Shown here one piece after another: positions 9,846 through 34,259 of a DNA stretch of 34,261 bases. Within the stretch, counting starts at the first letter, position 1; each line of letters begins with the position of its first letter. The notes under the pieces were generated by a model that was given only the letters and a program-made list of their open reading frames with translations, was not told the origin of the DNA and searched no databases. The position numbers and the translations under genes are program-made. Source of the DNA: Anaerolineae bacterium (GTDB taxonomy: Bacteria > Chloroflexota > Anaerolineae > 4572-78 > J111); the NCBI GenBank assembly GCA_016931895.1, contig JAFGDY010000045.1, positions 1-34,261 on the forward strand, written 5' to 3'.

Positions 9846-11161
9846 GCCGGCCGCTCCATTTTTGCGGCGGCGCGCCACAGGGCGCGCCAATCAACAGCGT
9901 AGAGCAACAGCATAAGCGCCGGCAGCAGGCCGTGCATCATCACGTGTTCCCAATTTCCCTCCAGGGTGGCCATAAAAACACCCCACATCAAACCAAACAA
10001 ACTCGCCTGAATACCGACAACGGTTAAAATGCTCCATCTTTCTTTTTTCAAAGGGAATACCATCAAGCGTTGAAAAAAGAAAAAAAGCGGCAAATAAAGA
10101 ATCACCTGGTTGGTGGTAGCCGAACGGAAGGTGATAAGACTGCCCACAATCAGGGTGGTCATAACCGCCCAGGTATAAGCGCCGGGCCGGCCCCGTAAGG
10201 CCAGCCACCAGCCGGGCAGCAGGGCTAAAAAAAATAAAACCGATAACCCCATTGTTAATGGCGGAACCATTGTGACCGGCAGGAAGTAAAGAAGAAGATT
10301 TTCCAGGGGTGTGCCAAAGGCTACGTAATGGCTATAGGCGATAGCGTTGCGGACAAAGTCAAAGGGCCAGGTGGGGAGCATGAGCATGCTGGTCGTCACC
10401 AAAATCAACACACTCATTACAAAACTGCCGATGAGCCGCCAACGCCGCTGAAACAGCGCCCACAACAGCAAAAAGGCCAGTCCCAAAACCACCATCTGCG
10501 GTTTGATGGTGGTCAAGGATAAAAAAATACCGGCCCAAACGTCTTGCCGATTCTGAATACACCACAAGGCCAACACCAGGGCCAACCCCACCAGCACAGA
10601 AAACTGCCCCAGGATAATGGCCCGCGCCCCATTGTAGAAGAATATCCCCCAAAACAGGGTGAGCCAGAAGAGCCAGCGCGGTGGGCGCCAGCCCGACACC
10701 CAAATAGACCACAGCGTGGTCCCTATCAACATCAGTTGCAGCAGCGCTATCCAGATGGCCTGCGCCCAGGGATAAGCGATGAGACTGAGCGGCCAGAAGA
10801 AATAAAGCGTGTACAACGGATAGGCAAAGTAAGCCTGGTCTTTGATCTCCGGGCCAACCGCACGGCCAAACATGGCTATTTGGGCTTTTTCGGCAATAAC
10901 CTGATGGTAGGGATTTGTGCCGCGCAGCAAAAATTCACGCCCGCCCAGCCAGCGCACAAAAAAATCATTGCCGCCGGAGAATTTACTGGTAAAAACGGCG
11001 TGCAGCGCAACGGATTCGGCGGCCACCAGCAAACAAAGCAAAACGGCCAAAATGAGCCATTGGATAAGGGGTTGAGCTAACCTTCGTCGGGTGGGTTGGT
11101 CAATCACTTGATGGTCCATTGTTTTGGGCAATTGGCTTCTGGCCGGCAGACGAGTCGTCAT
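9842..11161 (-). CDS. GT87-like (DUF2029) membrane glycosyltransferase
   Basis: 439 residues from ATG at 11159-11161 (a TTG directly before it is possible; an internal ATG at 11119 would shorten it by 14). Helix 1 is at about 33-56, then a first loop with FSGGNDFFVRWLGGREFLLR followed by GTNPYHQV, the GT87 pattern of acidic residue, W and G-NPY, and then YFAYPLYTLYFFWPL. Later NGARAIILGQFSVL and LTTIKPQMVVLGL are typical GT87-like features. The first 62 nt overlap the 3' end of the upstream GT2 gene in a different frame, an unusually long overlap. It ends with ATGA overlap into the GT39-like gene. Probably uses a polyprenyl-phosphate sugar such as one made by its GT2 neighbour. Confidence 0.78.
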   Translation of the reverse strand: MTTRLPARSQLPKTMDHQVIDQPTRRRLAQPLIQWLILAVLLCLLVAAESVALHAVFTSKFSGGNDFFVRWLGGREFLLRGTNPYHQVIAEKAQIAMFGRAVGPEIKDQAYFAYPLYTLYFFWPLSLIAYPWAQAIWIALLQLMLIGTTLWSIWVSGWRPPRWLFWLTLFWGIFFYNGARAIILGQFSVLVGLALVLALWCIQNRQDVWAGIFLSLTTIKPQMVVLGLAFLLLWALFQRRWRLIGSFVMSVLILVTTSMLMLPTWPFDFVRNAIAYSHYVAFGTPLENLLLYFLPVTMVPPLTMGLSVLFFLALLPGWWLALRGRPGAYTWAVMTTLIVGSLITFRSATTNQVILYLPLFFFFQRLMVFPLKKERWSILTVVGIQASLFGLMWGVFMATLEGNWEHVMMHGLLPALMLLLYAVDWRALWRAAAKMERPA

Positions 11162-11873
11162 CAAAACGAGTCCGGGTGGGATTGTCCCGGTAAAAGAAAC
11201 GATACTTGATTAATGTCCAGATTGCAATCGCCCCATCGTACCATTGTATTTTTTTGCCCTCTGTCCAGGAGCGGGGGGCGTATGAGATAGGCACCTCGTG
11301 AATGGGCACTTTCCGCCGCAATAATTTGGCCGTCACTTCCGGGCAAAACTCAAAGCCATCCGTTTCCAGGCCCATCTCTCGCAGTAAGTTGGTTTTGATC
11401 ACTTTGTAACCGGTGGCTTCATCGGTAATGTGCGCGCCGTAGAGCCAATTGGTAATCCAGCTTAGTAACCGCCCGCCCCAGTAAAAGGCCCAGGAGGACC
11501 TGGCATTGCGACGGAGATTGCGCGAGCCATACACAACCTGCACCGAGGGGTCGGCAAAAGGAGCTAACAGGGCAGCGTAGTCAGCCGGGTCATATTCCAG
11601 GTCGGCATCCTGCACCAAAACCAAATCGCCGGTTGCCGCCTCCAGGCCGGTACGCATGGCCGCGCCCTTGCCTTGATTCTGCCGGTGCCGCAAGAGGCGC
11701 AACGGGGGCCGGCCACTGTGTTGCAGGCGAGCCAAAATAGCCGGAGATTGATCGTTGGAGCCATCATCAACCGTAATAATTTCGTAGGCCAGGCCCGTAG
11801 CCCGGACGCGGCCAATAATTTCGGCCAGGGTTGTTTCTTCGTTATAAACGGGGATAATGATGCTGAGTTTCAA
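11100..11873 (-). CDS. GT2 family polyprenyl(dolichol)-phosphate sugar synthase-like glycosyltransferase
   Basis: 257 residues with a GT-A fold plan: SIIIPVYNEE (residues 4-13), DDGSND (36-41), NQGKGAAMRTG (66-76) and the metal-binding QDADLEYDP (88-96, DxD at 89-91). The downstream ATGYKVIK and PISYAPRSWTEGKKIQWYDG motifs are characteristic of the dolichol-phosphate glucose/mannose synthase-like branch of GT2. It would transfer a sugar from a nucleotide-sugar to polyprenyl phosphate on the cytoplasmic face, giving donor for the GT-C enzymes around it. No transmembrane anchor. Start is TTG at 11871-11873; there is no upstream in-frame ATG near the conserved IPVYNEE. The last 20 codons overlap the next gene. 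Nucleotide-sugar specificity cannot be read from sequence. Confidence 0.88.
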   Translation of the reverse strand: MKLSIIIPVYNEETTLAEIIGRVRATGLAYEIITVDDGSNDQSPAILARLQHSGRPPLRLLRHRQNQGKGAAMRTGLEAATGDLVLVQDADLEYDPADYAALLAPFADPSVQVVYGSRNLRRNARSSWAFYWGGRLLSWITNWLYGAHITDEATGYKVIKTNLLREMGLETDGFEFCPEVTAKLLRRKVPIHEVPISYAPRSWTEGKKIQWYDGAIAIWTLIKYRFFYRDNPTRTRFDDDSSAGQKPIAQNNGPSSD

Positions 11874-20537: not shown

Positions 20538-21344
20538 CTACAAGGAAGGGGGAGTTGTTTCTTTAGCCAAATTTTCTAAGCGCCCCACCTCGTCAGAAAC
20601 CGGCGGCAATACCGATACCTGCGCCAACCGTTTCCGTTTCAGTAATCGGCTGGCAAACAACCGCAACACCGTATACATAGCCTTGTAAATCTCTCGCTGA
20701 GATATTTTTGACTCTCCCCGCTCTCGGTTGGCAAAGATAATGGGAATTTCCCCTACGGTATAGCCTAGCCGCTGGCATCTAAATAACATTTCCACCAAAA
20801 ACGAGTAGCCATTAGAGAAAATCTGGTTCAGGTCAATATTTAGCAAAACCTCTCGGTGGTAACAACGAAAACCGGCTGTACAATCATGCGCCTTCAAGCC
20901 CAGCACTGTGCGTACAAAAGCATTGGCTCCCCAGCTCAAAAACCGGCGCCGCCAACCCCAATTTCGCACTCCACCCTGAGGAATATAACGCGAACCAATG
21001 GTAATGTGAAAATGATCGGCCAGCGCCACCAGACCCGGCAGGTAAGCGGGGCTGTGCGAAAAGTCGGCATCCATCGTGATCAAACGGTCTGCGCCTTCAG
21101 CCAAACCCTGTTTGAACCCCGCAATATAGGCCGTGCCCAGGCCCAACTTTCCCTCTCGGTGAATTACCCCCACCCGTCCATATTGTGCCGCCAACCCCTC
21201 CGCAATTTGCCCGGTTCCGTCCGGCGAGTTATCATCAACAATAATCACTCTGGCCTTAAGGTTTTCCAACGCCAGAATTTGTTCAACCAAATCGGTGATA
21301 TTTTCCTTTTCATTGTAAGTTGGCACAATTACACAAACGTCCAA
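20538..21344 (-). CDS. GT2 family DPM1-like polyprenyl-phosphate mannosyltransferase
   Basis: 268 residues, TTG start at 21342-21344 with AGGGTG just upstream. Motifs of soluble dolichol-phosphate mannose synthases are clear: CVIVPTYNEKENI (4-16), VDDNSPDGTG (36-45), GKLGLGTAYIAGF (65-77), MDADFSHSP (91-99, DxD at 92-94), GSRYIPQGGVRNWGWRRR, DCTAGFRCYHREVL and RGESKIS. It would use GDP-mannose (or a related nucleotide sugar) to charge polyprenyl phosphate on the cytoplasmic side. No C-terminal membrane anchor or GtrA-like domain, as in the single-subunit soluble types. It is the promoter-proximal gene of the long minus-strand cluster, which makes sense if it supplies the donor for the GT-C enzymes behind it. 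Confidence 0.9.
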   Translation of the reverse strand: MDVCVIVPTYNEKENITDLVEQILALENLKARVIIVDDNSPDGTGQIAEGLAAQYGRVGVIHREGKLGLGTAYIAGFKQGLAEGADRLITMDADFSHSPAYLPGLVALADHFHITIGSRYIPQGGVRNWGWRRRFLSWGANAFVRTVLGLKAHDCTAGFRCYHREVLLNIDLNQIFSNGYSFLVEMLFRCQRLGYTVGEIPIIFANRERGESKISQREIYKAMYTVLRLFASRLLKRKRLAQVSVLPPVSDEVGRLENLAKETTPPSL

Positions 21345-31064: not shown

Positions 31065-32441
31065 TTACGGGGAGTCTGAAACCGTTTTACGCGGGTTACT
31101 CATCAACCTGGATGCGCTTTTTTCATCAGCCGCTCTGGTCTTGCCCTTCTGACCATTCCCTGCGTTATCCTGTAACTGTTGAATTTTCACCCGGCCAATG
31201 CGGCGTCCCTCCACCGCCAACACCGTTAAACGACTCTCGCCCACCTCCACAAAATCGCCCACTTCAGGCACGCGACCAAGCACTGAATAAACCAGCCCGC
31301 CCAGGGTATCGCTCTCGTCGGTGGGCAGGTCAATAGACATAATATTGTTGATGTCGTCCAAATCCGCACGGGCGTTAAAAATATACTCGCTATCGGAAAT
31401 ACGCTCCATGAAGAACTCTTCGCTGTCGTACTCGTCCTGAATTTCACCCACAATTTCTTCCAAAATATCCTCAATGGTTACCAAGCCGGCCATCCCGCCA
31501 TATTCGTCAACCACAATGGCAATATGCACTTTTTCCCGCTGCAACTCGCGCAAAAGGTCGCTGACCGGTTTAGTTTCGGGCACATAGTAAGCATCACGCA
31601 CCAAACATTGTACCTCATCCGGCGCAACGCCATCGCGCCAGTGAGCCAGCAAATCTTTGGCATAGAGGATGCCCTCAATATTATCAATGCTCTCTCTGTA
31701 AACCGGCACCCGTGAGTGGCCGGCCGCCACGATAATATCAAGGGCCTGACGCACCGACGTTCCCGCCTCAATCGCCACCACGTCAATGCGCGGTACCATA
31801 ATCTCGCGGGCCAGGGTATCATCCAGGTTGAAGATAGAATAGATCATCTCCTTTTCATCTTCTTTCAATGCTCCGCCTTCTTCGCTGGCATCCACGTAAG
31901 TGCGTAAATCCTCTTCGGTGATAATCCCCAACCCCTCGCTCTCTCCTTCACCGGAACGGCCGGTCAGCATCCAGCTAACCTTGGTCACAAGCCGGGCCAG
32001 GGGAGTGGCCAGCCGGGATAATAGGTAAATGGGGTGAATTGTCCACAGGGCTATGGTTTCAGCATAGTTACGGGCAATATCCCGGGGAATAAGTTCACCC
32101 AGAATAAGAGTAGTTAAAGCCGCCACCACAACAATGATAGCCGCGGCAATGAGGTTACTGATAGAGATAGCCCGGGCTAAAGGGGTGGTGTAAACCAAAA
32201 CCGCAAAAGCGATAATGGAAAAACCGATAAATTTGAGGGCAAGTTGCTCGGTGGCCAACAAACGAGAAGCATCCTCGGCCAGATCATCAACCAACTCGGC
32301 CCCCCGCCGACCTTCTTCAAGTAATTGTAACCGCCGCCACTTGCGAGTAGAAACGATAGCCTCTTTTGCCGCGGCAAAAAAAGCGTGCAACGCCAGCAAA
32401 ATCAAAAGAACAATTATAGACGCCGTACTGTCAGGGTCCAA
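31065..32441 (-). CDS. CNNM/CorC-type (HlyC/UPF0053) membrane protein with CBS pair
   Basis: 458 residues, TTG start at 32439-32441 supported by GGAG seven bases upstream. An N-terminal DUF21 (CNNM transmembrane) domain covers about residues 1-185, including [20 protein letters not shown] and [19 protein letters not shown] pair follows at about 205-335 ([55 protein letters not shown]). A CorC_HlyC transporter-associated domain covers about 350-435 ([35 protein letters not shown]). Relatives take part in Mg2+/Co2+ efflux or resistance; 'hemolysin' in older annotations is misleading. The final ~25 residues are charged and variable. It lies 38 nt after glmU. Confidence 0.9.
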
Positions 32442-32479: not shown

Positions 32480-33835
32480 CTATTCTGACGCTGTATTGAT
32501 ATCTTTCAAGCGGGCCGGGACGCCATAGGCCACTGCGCCATCAGGTACATCTTTCTTGACTACGGAACCGGCGCCCGTTTTGGCGTTTTTTCCAATATTG
32601 ACCGGGGCCACCAACATCGTATCGCTGCCAATGAACGCTCCATCACCAATGTTTGTTTGGTGTTTATTGACTCCATCATAGTTGCACGTAATGGTTCCGG
32701 CCCCAATGTTGACATCCGTGCCAATGGCGGCATCGCCTAAATAACTAAAATGGCCCATCTTGGTGCCTGGGCCCAGGTACGAATTTTTGACCTCGCCAAA
32801 ATTACCCATGTGGACTCCTTCGGCCAGGTGGGACCCCTTTCGCAGATGGCCAAACGGGCCAATATCCACGTTATTTTCCATCACTGCCTGCTCAACCACC
32901 GAAAACCGAATCTGACAATGATCACCGATGGTGGAGGCCTCAATATAACTATTAGGGCCAATGATACAATCACGCCCAATGGTGGTTTGACCCATCAGAA
33001 AAGTGTTGGGATAAATAACCGTGTCTGGGCCTATGGTTACGCCCAACTCAATATAAGTGGTCGCCGGATCAAGCATGGTCACCCCGGATTCCATCAGCTT
33101 TTGGTTGACCCGCTGGCGCAAGATAGCTTCAACATGGGCCAGGTGGGCACGATTGTTAATACCCAGCACTTCCGCTGGATCTGCTATGAGTTCGGTTTGA
33201 ACTGTTTTGCCTTGCTCAACCGCAATCCCAATTAAGTTAGTTAAATAATTGTTTTCTTTGTCCCCCGGGGTCACTTTTCCCAAATGATGCCACAGCCACT
33301 CAGCCTCAACAACATAAATACCCGTATTTAGCTCACAAACGGCCCGCTGCTCTGGCGTGCAATCAATCTTTTCAACAACTGCTTGCACAGCTCCCTGCTC
33401 GTCTCGCACCACCCGGCCCAAGCCAAAAGAATGTTCCCGCTCTACCACCAACATGGCTAATGGGCCTTGCGTTCTCTGGTAAACCGCAACCAGGTCTTGT
33501 AAGGTTTGGGGAGATAGTAACGGCATATTTCCATAAGTCGTCAATATAGCATCAGCTTTTCTTTCCAGCAAAGCACGGGCCTGCTGAACCGCATGCCTGC
33601 GGTCCGACTGCGGTGACTGAATAACAAAAGAGGTCTCATCGCCAAATTCAGCCTGTATCCGGTCATTAACTTCAGGCCCTACAATAACCACGGTCTCCAC
33701 CGGGTTTAAAGCTTTTACTGTCTCTAATACATAACCCAACATCGGTTTTCCCAGAATTGGGTGGAAGCTGGCGGGAGTTTTAGATTTCATCTGGTCATCT
33801 ATACCGACGGCCATAATTACAACAGCTAAATTCAT
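32480..33835 (-). CDS. glmU: GlmU-like protein: degenerate uridylyltransferase domain plus intact acetyltransferase domain
   Basis: 451 residues, close to the usual GlmU length. GlmU normally acetylates glucosamine-1-phosphate (C-terminal left-handed beta-helix) and then adds UMP (N-terminal domain) to make UDP-GlcNAc. The C-terminal half is well kept: FGHLRKGSHL (Arg332), VHMGNFGEVKNS, catalytic His362 in MGHFSYLGD, and INIGAG-type text NIGAGTITCNYDGVNKHQ. The N-terminal half has lost the core: the GxGTRM-x-S-x-x-PK motif reads AVGIDDQMKSKTPASFH (Gln15 for Arg, Ala22 for Lys), GTGHA reads DRRHA (78-82), and YGDxPL reads YGNMPL (Asn103 for the metal-binding Asp). ELNTGI and GINNR are retained. 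Possibly a monofunctional acetyltransferase, or a paralog with another sugar-nucleotide role. Confidence 0.85.
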   Translation of the reverse strand: MNLAVVIMAVGIDDQMKSKTPASFHPILGKPMLGYVLETVKALNPVETVVIVGPEVNDRIQAEFGDETSFVIQSPQSDRRHAVQQARALLERKADAILTTYGNMPLLSPQTLQDLVAVYQRTQGPLAMLVVEREHSFGLGRVVRDEQGAVQAVVEKIDCTPEQRAVCELNTGIYVVEAEWLWHHLGKVTPGDKENNYLTNLIGIAVEQGKTVQTELIADPAEVLGINNRAHLAHVEAILRQRVNQKLMESGVTMLDPATTYIELGVTIGPDTVIYPNTFLMGQTTIGRDCIIGPNSYIEASTIGDHCQIRFSVVEQAVMENNVDIGPFGHLRKGSHLAEGVHMGNFGEVKNSYLGPGTKMGHFSYLGDAAIGTDVNIGAGTITCNYDGVNKHQTNIGDGAFIGSDTMLVAPVNIGKNAKTGAGSVVKKDVPDGAVAYGVPARLKDINTASE

Positions 33836-34142: not shown

Positions 34143-34143
34143 T

Positions 34144-34259
34144 CTTGGCAATGACCTACTCTCCCGGAGGGTCGCCCCTCAAGTACCATCGGCGCTGGTG
34201 GGCTTAACTGCCGGGTTCGGGATGGAGCCGGGTGTACCCCCACCGCTAAAATCACCAAG
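34144..34259 (-). rRNA. rrf: 5S ribosomal RNA
   Basis: About 116 nt on the minus strand. The two ends pair as helix I (CTTGG with CCAAG). Internal landmarks of bacterial 5S are present in order: a CCCATCCCGAAC-like CTCCATCCCGAACCCGG, CAGTTAAGCCC, CAGCGCCGATGGTACTTG and GGGAGAGTAGGTC. Ends are set by helix I pairing and may be off by one or two bases. A 5S at the edge implies that 23S and 16S genes lie beyond the right edge on the same strand, upstream of it; that is inference. Confidence 0.95.

Follow-up and report, generated by a model that had tools for sequence, protein, structure and literature searches.

A glmU gene with a dismantled uridylyltransferase site in an Anaerolineae genome, and a candidate replacement nucleotidyltransferase of the 3pnn family

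The DNA analyzed here, referred to as the window, is a stretch of 34,261 nucleotides (contig JAFGDY010000045.1) from the draft genome of an Anaerolineae bacterium (GCA_016931895.1). Near one end it carries a glmU gene on the minus strand, flanked by a 5S rRNA gene, the only RNA family detected in an Rfam search of the window, and by a gene for a CNNM/CorC-type CBS protein. Membrane proteins of 300-760 aa, almost all encoded on the minus strand, follow one another over positions 74-20508, and two family-2-like glycosyltransferases are found among the membrane proteins of the window (11100-11873 and 20538-21344). The features of the glmU region are given below, with E. coli residue numbers and roles as in the GlmU structure literature.

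32480..33835, minus strand: glmU open reading frame, ATG start, 451 aa plus stop, uninterrupted and full length
33155..33835, minus strand: N-terminal uridylyltransferase domain, residues 1-227, active site dismantled
33791..33793, minus strand: Gln15, replacing catalytic Arg18 (E. coli numbering); Arg in 132 of 132 other GlmUs
33770..33772, minus strand: Ala22, replacing catalytic Lys25; Lys in 131 of 132 others
33596..33604, minus strand: Asp78-Arg79-Arg80, replacing Gly81-Thr82-Gly83 of the GTGHA loop (now DRRHA), from the alignment
33527..33529, minus strand: Asn103, replacing metal-binding Asp105; Asp in 132 of 132 others
33251..33253, minus strand: Asn195, replacing the invariant Glu (100%) of the GEYY motif
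32483..33154, minus strand: C-terminal left-handed beta-helix acetyltransferase domain, residues 228-451, with 34 of 34 near-invariant columns kept
32750..32752, minus strand: His362, acetyltransferase catalytic base (E. coli His363), conserved in 132 of 132 others and kept
34143..34259, minus strand: 5S rRNA (Rfam RF00001, 101 bits), marking the slot upstream
31065..32441, minus strand: CNNM/CorC-type CBS protein, 76% identical to that of congener G001, marking the slot downstream

The original prediction, made from the sequence alone, held that a full-length GlmU had lost several separate catalytic residues of its uridylyltransferase half. The frame is indeed complete, and its product scores 480 bits against the equivalog model TIGR01173 (curated cut-off, 367 bits) and about 330 bits against solved GlmU chains. 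Its AlphaFold2 model (mean pLDDT 88) finds GlmU structures as top PDB matches, with a TM of about 0.9. Because the model superposes on GlmU crystal structures, the catalytic residues, whose presence elsewhere in the protein had been named as evidence against the prediction, have not been relocated. This is the sole GlmU of the genome (assembly of 6.06 Mb in 320 contigs, 97.4% complete, with 4.7% contamination).

Conservation was assessed in an alignment of the window GlmU with 132 other GlmU sequences, in which columns conserved at 95% or more were considered near-invariant. The uridylyltransferase signature, composed of the GxGTRM...PK motif, the GTGHA loop and the metal-binding Asp, is not found in the window protein. 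The replacements first described (Gln15, Ala22, DRRHA, and Asn103) all stand in this alignment; in the other GlmUs, Gly81 and Thr82 of the loop are kept in 131 and 128 of 132 sequences, respectively. The list was slightly short, as it omitted Asn195, Ala10Val (Ala13 in E. coli numbering; Ala in 130 of 132 others), Gly13Asp, Thr14Asp, and Asp200Asn. In the acetyltransferase domain, the retention of His362, Arg332 and the surrounding motifs was equally well described: Arg332, Lys350, His362, Tyr365, Asn376, Asn385, and Lys391 are all present, matching E. coli R333, K351, H363, Y366, N377, N386, and K392. Deviations affect 10 of the 29 near-invariant columns of the N-terminal domain and none of the 34 of the acetyltransferase domain, a split that, judged from the alignment, is far from chance scatter. 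The sequence of the window GlmU predicts acetyltransferase activity only.

Since the sugar-binding residues Gly140, Glu155, Asn170, and Asn227 (window numbering) are retained, it is mainly the side of the site facing nucleotide, phosphate, and metal that is damaged. The N-terminal domain would still be folded but, having lost the GTG nucleotide loop together with the catalytic Arg, the catalytic Lys and the metal Asp, would be unable to bind and activate UTP-Mg, persisting as a decaying, scaffold-like remnant. The retained sugar site and the lack of any frameshift might instead speak for a residual uridylyltransferase activity through altered chemistry, a very improbable reading given that Arg, Lys, nucleotide loop, and metal ligand were lost together, two of these being invariant in 132 of 132 other GlmUs.

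Compared with the intact orthologues of relatives G003 and G009, the window protein shows 75% identity in the acetyltransferase domain, where the two orthologues share 80% with each other; in the N-terminal domain its identity to them falls to 49% and 44%, versus 66% between the two. The excess distance of the window GlmU over that of G003 is 0.35 for the N-terminal domain and 0.15 for the acetyltransferase domain. These protein distances fit relaxed constraint on the window N-terminal domain, with a ratio between the two domains that is not extreme within the family (rank 6 of 53, the intact sisters holding ranks 7 and 8). A stronger argument from rate acceleration was dropped, the ratio being just modestly high.

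A draft genome of 320 contigs with a contamination estimate of 4.7% could raise suspicion of an assembly error, a chimera, or a contaminating contig. The composition of the window fits the genome, long collinear blocks of it share 75-80% DNA identity with congener G001, the reading frame is uninterrupted, and the conserved-site changes are confined to one domain, all of which make such an artifact extremely improbable.

Within the family to which the window genome belongs (f1), the order of the locus is conserved, with the 5S rRNA just upstream of glmU and the CNNM/CorC-type gene downstream; the 5S rRNA adjoins the same slot in G001, G002, G003, G008, G009, and G011. The slot contains an intact GlmU in G003 and G009. 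In G002, G008, and G011 it contains the acetyltransferase domain alone, as an open reading frame of 227-232 aa that runs from the linker helix onward and is in no case truncated by a contig end. A bacterial GlmU is lacking in congener G001, where the interval between the 5S rRNA and CNNM genes (L170, G001:C104, 276-4777) encodes two phosphohexomutases and an archaeal-type bifunctional GlmU, the archaeal type having displaced the bacterial enzyme in place. A stand-alone bacterial uridylyltransferase domain occurs in G006 and in the sister families f2 and f3, and in the cases examined (G006, G016, and G012; L121, L122, and L177) an archaeal-type beta-helix protein adjoins it. As the contents of the slot and the kind of GlmU vary to this degree, the route to UDP-GlcNAc has evidently been reassembled on several occasions in these families. 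The arrangement in G006, G016, and G012 corresponds to a chimeric split GlmU, made of a bacterial uridylyltransferase and an archaeal-type beta-helix acetyltransferase. An FMN riboswitch was observed near the acetyltransferase-only glmU of G011 (L120, 4661-4825).

Decayed N-terminal domains were also identified in at least six more genomes of the class, outside family f1, in a count from which truncations at contig ends (G109, G123, and G177) were left out. In G026, a genome of a different family, GlmU (L130) is full length and its N-terminal domain has lost Lys25, Gln76, Gly81, Gly140, and more; in G364 a deletion has shortened the sugar-binding segment by about 40 residues; and in G176, G384, G236, G279, and G159 the N-terminal domain is strongly eroded, with an intact acetyltransferase behind it. 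In G117 (L268, G117:C155) the beta-helix lies, on inspection of the sequence, in one frame behind a stretch resembling a hotdog acyl-CoA thioesterase. It had been proposed to see whether the replacements define a clade: the exact set of substitutions is a singleton, common to no sampled relative, and what recurs among relatives is the loss of the domain function.

These relatives bear on a further reading, in which the N-terminal domain, though no longer catalytic, would act in sensing or assembly, binding GlcNAc-1-P or UDP-GlcNAc and regulating the acetyltransferase. A full-length frame, a predicted fold that appears intact, and the four sugar contacts named above would suit such a role. Other members of the family, however, delete the entire domain and keep the acetyltransferase, and the domain is thus not needed for acetyltransferase activity; G364 has lost the sugar-binding segment itself, and the branch of the window N-terminal domain is longer than those of the intact sisters. 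A sensor function is therefore improbable.

Comparison of the nucleotidyltransferases of acetyltransferase-only genomes with those of intact-GlmU genomes revealed a candidate family of about 305 aa, termed here 3pnn-type after its match in the PDB, which was first chosen post hoc from among the nucleotidyltransferases of the family. The window genome (G000) carries one copy, at C89:1370-2281. In a direct search the gene was present in 6 of 42 genomes (G000, G002, G005, G008, G011, and G026), which are all those then known to combine a dead or missing N-terminal domain with a retained acetyltransferase, plus G005, where no GlmU match was found. Across the class it occurs in 24 of 396 genomes, with positives in 10 of 60 families.

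The search for 3pnn-type genes in the 396 genomes was combined with a GlmU search and a search with the N-terminal domain alone. The gene was found in 20 of 100 genomes in which the N-terminal domain is weak or absent, and in 4 of 296, including the window genome, in which it is strong (Fisher 1e-9), the counts being of genomes, related ones included, rather than of independent events. Among genomes that keep the acetyltransferase and have lost the N-terminal domain the proportion rises to 10 of 13, compared with 3 of the 295 whose N-terminal domain is intact (Fisher 4e-14), where intact means for most of the 295 a strong N-terminal domain score, motifs having been read in about 55 genomes of the class. 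When the eight discovery genomes are left out, the first comparison becomes 16 of 95 versus 3 of 293 (p 3e-8), and the second, between genomes with the domain lost and intact, gives a p of 1.5e-7. The original prediction had pointed to a second GlmU or a stand-alone pyrophosphorylase in the genome as something to look for; no second GlmU exists, and the C89 gene is a candidate of the latter kind that tracks loss of the N-terminal domain.

Three genomes have an intact GlmU and a 3pnn-type gene together, and about 80 have neither a strong GlmU N-terminal domain nor a 3pnn-type gene. In genus g139 the gene accompanies an intact N-terminal domain in G203 and G342 and a deleted one in G364, a pattern suggesting that the gene was gained before the domain was lost. 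In the gene tree, the copy of the window genome groups with those of G071 (74% identical), G284, and G026, and the copies of G002, G005, G008, and G011 group with a Porphyromonas protein, which indicates two separate 3pnn-type lineages within family f1. The high identity to the G071 nucleotidyltransferase led us to consider whether C89 was contamination by an f15 organism, an idea rejected by composition, since the tetranucleotide correlation of the contig is 0.973 with the window genome and 0.497 with G071.

The C89 protein matches PDB 3pnn both by sequence (304 bits) and through its structural model (pLDDT 90), which aligns over 297 residues (Z 38.5, rmsd 2.1, 47% identity); the next structural matches are RmlA, GalU, and GlmU, with Z of about 20-22. 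It combines the nucleotidyltransferase fold with the Arg/Lys signature and the metal Asp, and the motifs GSRYG...K, KPWGT, and NADDxYG are invariant in 18 of 18 aligned 3pnn-type copies. No NCBIfam model matched the C89 protein.

A NahK-like kinase of 362-370 aa is encoded next to the 3pnn-type gene in G071, G176, and G262; that of G262 matches the solved NahK (N-acetylhexosamine 1-kinase) 4wh1 with an E of 3e-94, and the other two are 44-46% identical to it. The galE gene adjoins the 3pnn-type gene in G176 and G132. In G364 the gene is found among PIG-L deacetylase, SIS, NagC-like, and NamZ genes, an amino-sugar salvage cluster, and a PIG-L deacetylase gene also adjoins it in G026. Other neighborhoods include a MinD-like ATPase gene in G002, G008, and G011, homologues of which (38-43% identical) adjoin phosphomutase/uridylyltransferase genes in G006 and G010, and, in the window genome, a PfkB-type kinase gene rather than NahK. 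From the co-occurrence and from the NahK and GalE neighbors we infer UTP and GlcNAc-1-P as the substrates of the C89 protein. A fusion of about 740 aa, combining a GlmU-like nucleotidyltransferase with a phosphohexomutase, lies directly beside the 3pnn-type gene in G113 (L296, G113:C16, 4071-6293), and similar frames were seen in G054, G130, G161, G176, G196, G203, G208, G232, and G342.

Several other enzymes were considered as replacements. For the archaeal-type GlmU (TIGR03992), the best score in the window genome is 265 bits, from an RmlA-like protein, below the cut-off of 292 bits that is exceeded in G001 and G010; this enzyme serves in congener G001, is absent from the window genome, and was discarded. 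The UDPGP family (PF01704) looked like a replacement at first, each of the three acetyltransferase-only genomes having a full-length member. Full-length members were found in G002, G003, G004, G008, G009, and G011, all with the KLNGGLG motif, which we take to denote the UGP type and not the UAP1 type; the window genome has none, just a 120-aa partial match within a 1109-aa frame. The family was rejected, being of the UGP type (KLNGGLGT), co-occurring with intact GlmU, and absent from the window genome. Eukaryotic-type UDP-glucose pyrophosphorylases of this kind (PF01704, KLNGGLG) lie at L158-L161, L173, and L174 in genomes of the family, and both the window genome and G001 have a GalU-like gene whose neighbor, a frame of about 1110 aa, matches UDPGP in part. 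The ManC-like protein of C237 was set aside as being, by sequence, of the GDP-mannose type. A nucleotidyltransferase at C82:12029-12937, beside a galactokinase-like gene, was likewise dismissed, as it does not track loss of the GlmU N-terminal domain; its type is present in G001, G003, G006, G009, and G010.

It is nevertheless conceivable that the N-terminal domain is dead and that UDP-GlcNAc is supplied by the C82 enzyme, an RmlA-like protein or a promiscuous GalU, with the 3pnn-type enzyme serving, for example, UDP-GalNAc or UDP-MurNAc salvage. The window genome has at least nine further NTP_transferase genes, and G159 (L259, G159:C2; 100% complete) has an eroded N-terminal domain without a 3pnn-type gene, as probably does G339, classed from scores only. 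Because of G159 and the many genomes without both, other replacements must exist in the class. On the other side, the C82 type occurs where working alternatives exist and was not seen in G002, G008, and G011, and it is the 3pnn-type gene that does track the loss. A supply by one of these other enzymes is thus unlikely for the window genome.

The explanation we consider probable combines an acetyltransferase-only GlmU with a 3pnn-type C89 enzyme that supplies UDP-GlcNAc, the N-terminal domain having been lost recurrently. The C-terminal beta-helix of GlmU would convert GlcN-1-P and acetyl-CoA to GlcNAc-1-P as its sole activity, a step suggested by the complete conservation of the acetyltransferase site. 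The C89:1370-2281 enzyme would then convert UTP and GlcNAc-1-P to UDP-GlcNAc, as its co-occurrence, neighbors, and catalytic motifs suggest. The enzyme may belong to amino-sugar salvage, given the N-acetylhexosamine 1-kinase adjacent to it in relatives. Its gain would have rendered the N-terminal domain of GlmU dispensable, and repeated losses may then have taken the form of point mutations in the window genome, of erosion or an internal deletion in certain lineages, and of a clean excision elsewhere. With regard to the original prediction, the idea of an acetyltransferase-only enzyme with a nucleotidyltransferase elsewhere gains support from the C89 gene, its co-occurrence, and the in-place deletions; the alternative of a regulator found none.

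Peptidoglycan cannot be made without the synthesis of UDP-GlcNAc, and GlmU, a target for antibacterials, is treated as strictly bifunctional. Relatives at every stage (intact, eroded, and deleted) reveal here the dismantling of a fused, essential enzyme, and the phylogenetic pattern provides a structural-genomics orphan, 3pnn, with a testable function. Since the NCBI equivalog scores the window protein well above its cut-off, an annotation as bifunctional GlmU is no guarantee of the uridylyl step. The open-access literature searched contained no typical GlmU with a uridylyltransferase half killed by point mutations, and no recurrent in-place loss of that half alongside a 3pnn-type enzyme. More broadly, the 3pnn family may constitute an unrecognized class of UDP-N-acetylhexosamine pyrophosphorylases, derived from amino-sugar salvage, that displaced half of GlmU several times independently, a proposal for which we hold belief and doubt to be evenly balanced. 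As its structural representative comes from Porphyromonas, the family may also carry out uridylyl transfer in Bacteroidetes, from which GlmU is reported to be missing or lost (PMC7725333). In that genome survey, GlmU or GlmS was missing from many genomes, including all those sampled from the FCB group (PMC7725333). A non-orthologous uridylyltransferase is one possible answer.

The window GlmU resembles the bifunctional GlmUs (TIGR01173; structures from E. coli, S. pneumoniae, and M. tuberculosis) in its whole-length homology, its two-domain fold, an identical acetyltransferase active site, and a single copy per genome; it differs from them in its uridylyltransferase site, where the GTG loop, the metal Asp, and both the Arg and the Lys of catalysis are replaced. 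Bifunctional, archaeal-type, and split GlmUs are all known kinds. The archaeal-type GlmU catalyzes both GlmU steps, as its family name implies, and fills the 5S rRNA slot in G001; it is missing from the window genome and represents a separate evolutionary replacement.

The C89 protein belongs to the same family as PDB 3pnn, an uncharacterized protein of Porphyromonas gingivalis W83. The title of that entry names a glycosyltransferase or conserved domain protein, whereas the present analysis connects the family with NahK and with the loss of a GlmU domain; no open-access paper containing both '3PNN' and 'nucleotidyltransferase' was found. The adjacent NahK-like kinase and galE genes of some relatives recall the NahK/lacto-N-biose salvage pathway, in which, in bifidobacteria, the uridylyl step is carried out by a GalT-type transferase and not by a 3pnn-family pyrophosphorylase. 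The 3pnn-type enzyme may also be compared with MurU, the MurNAc-1-P uridylyltransferase of peptidoglycan recycling, as both would be stand-alone amino-sugar-1-P uridylyltransferases, and a NamZ gene lies near the 3pnn-type gene in G364. MurU is set apart from the 3pnn type by its shorter length, of about 225 aa.
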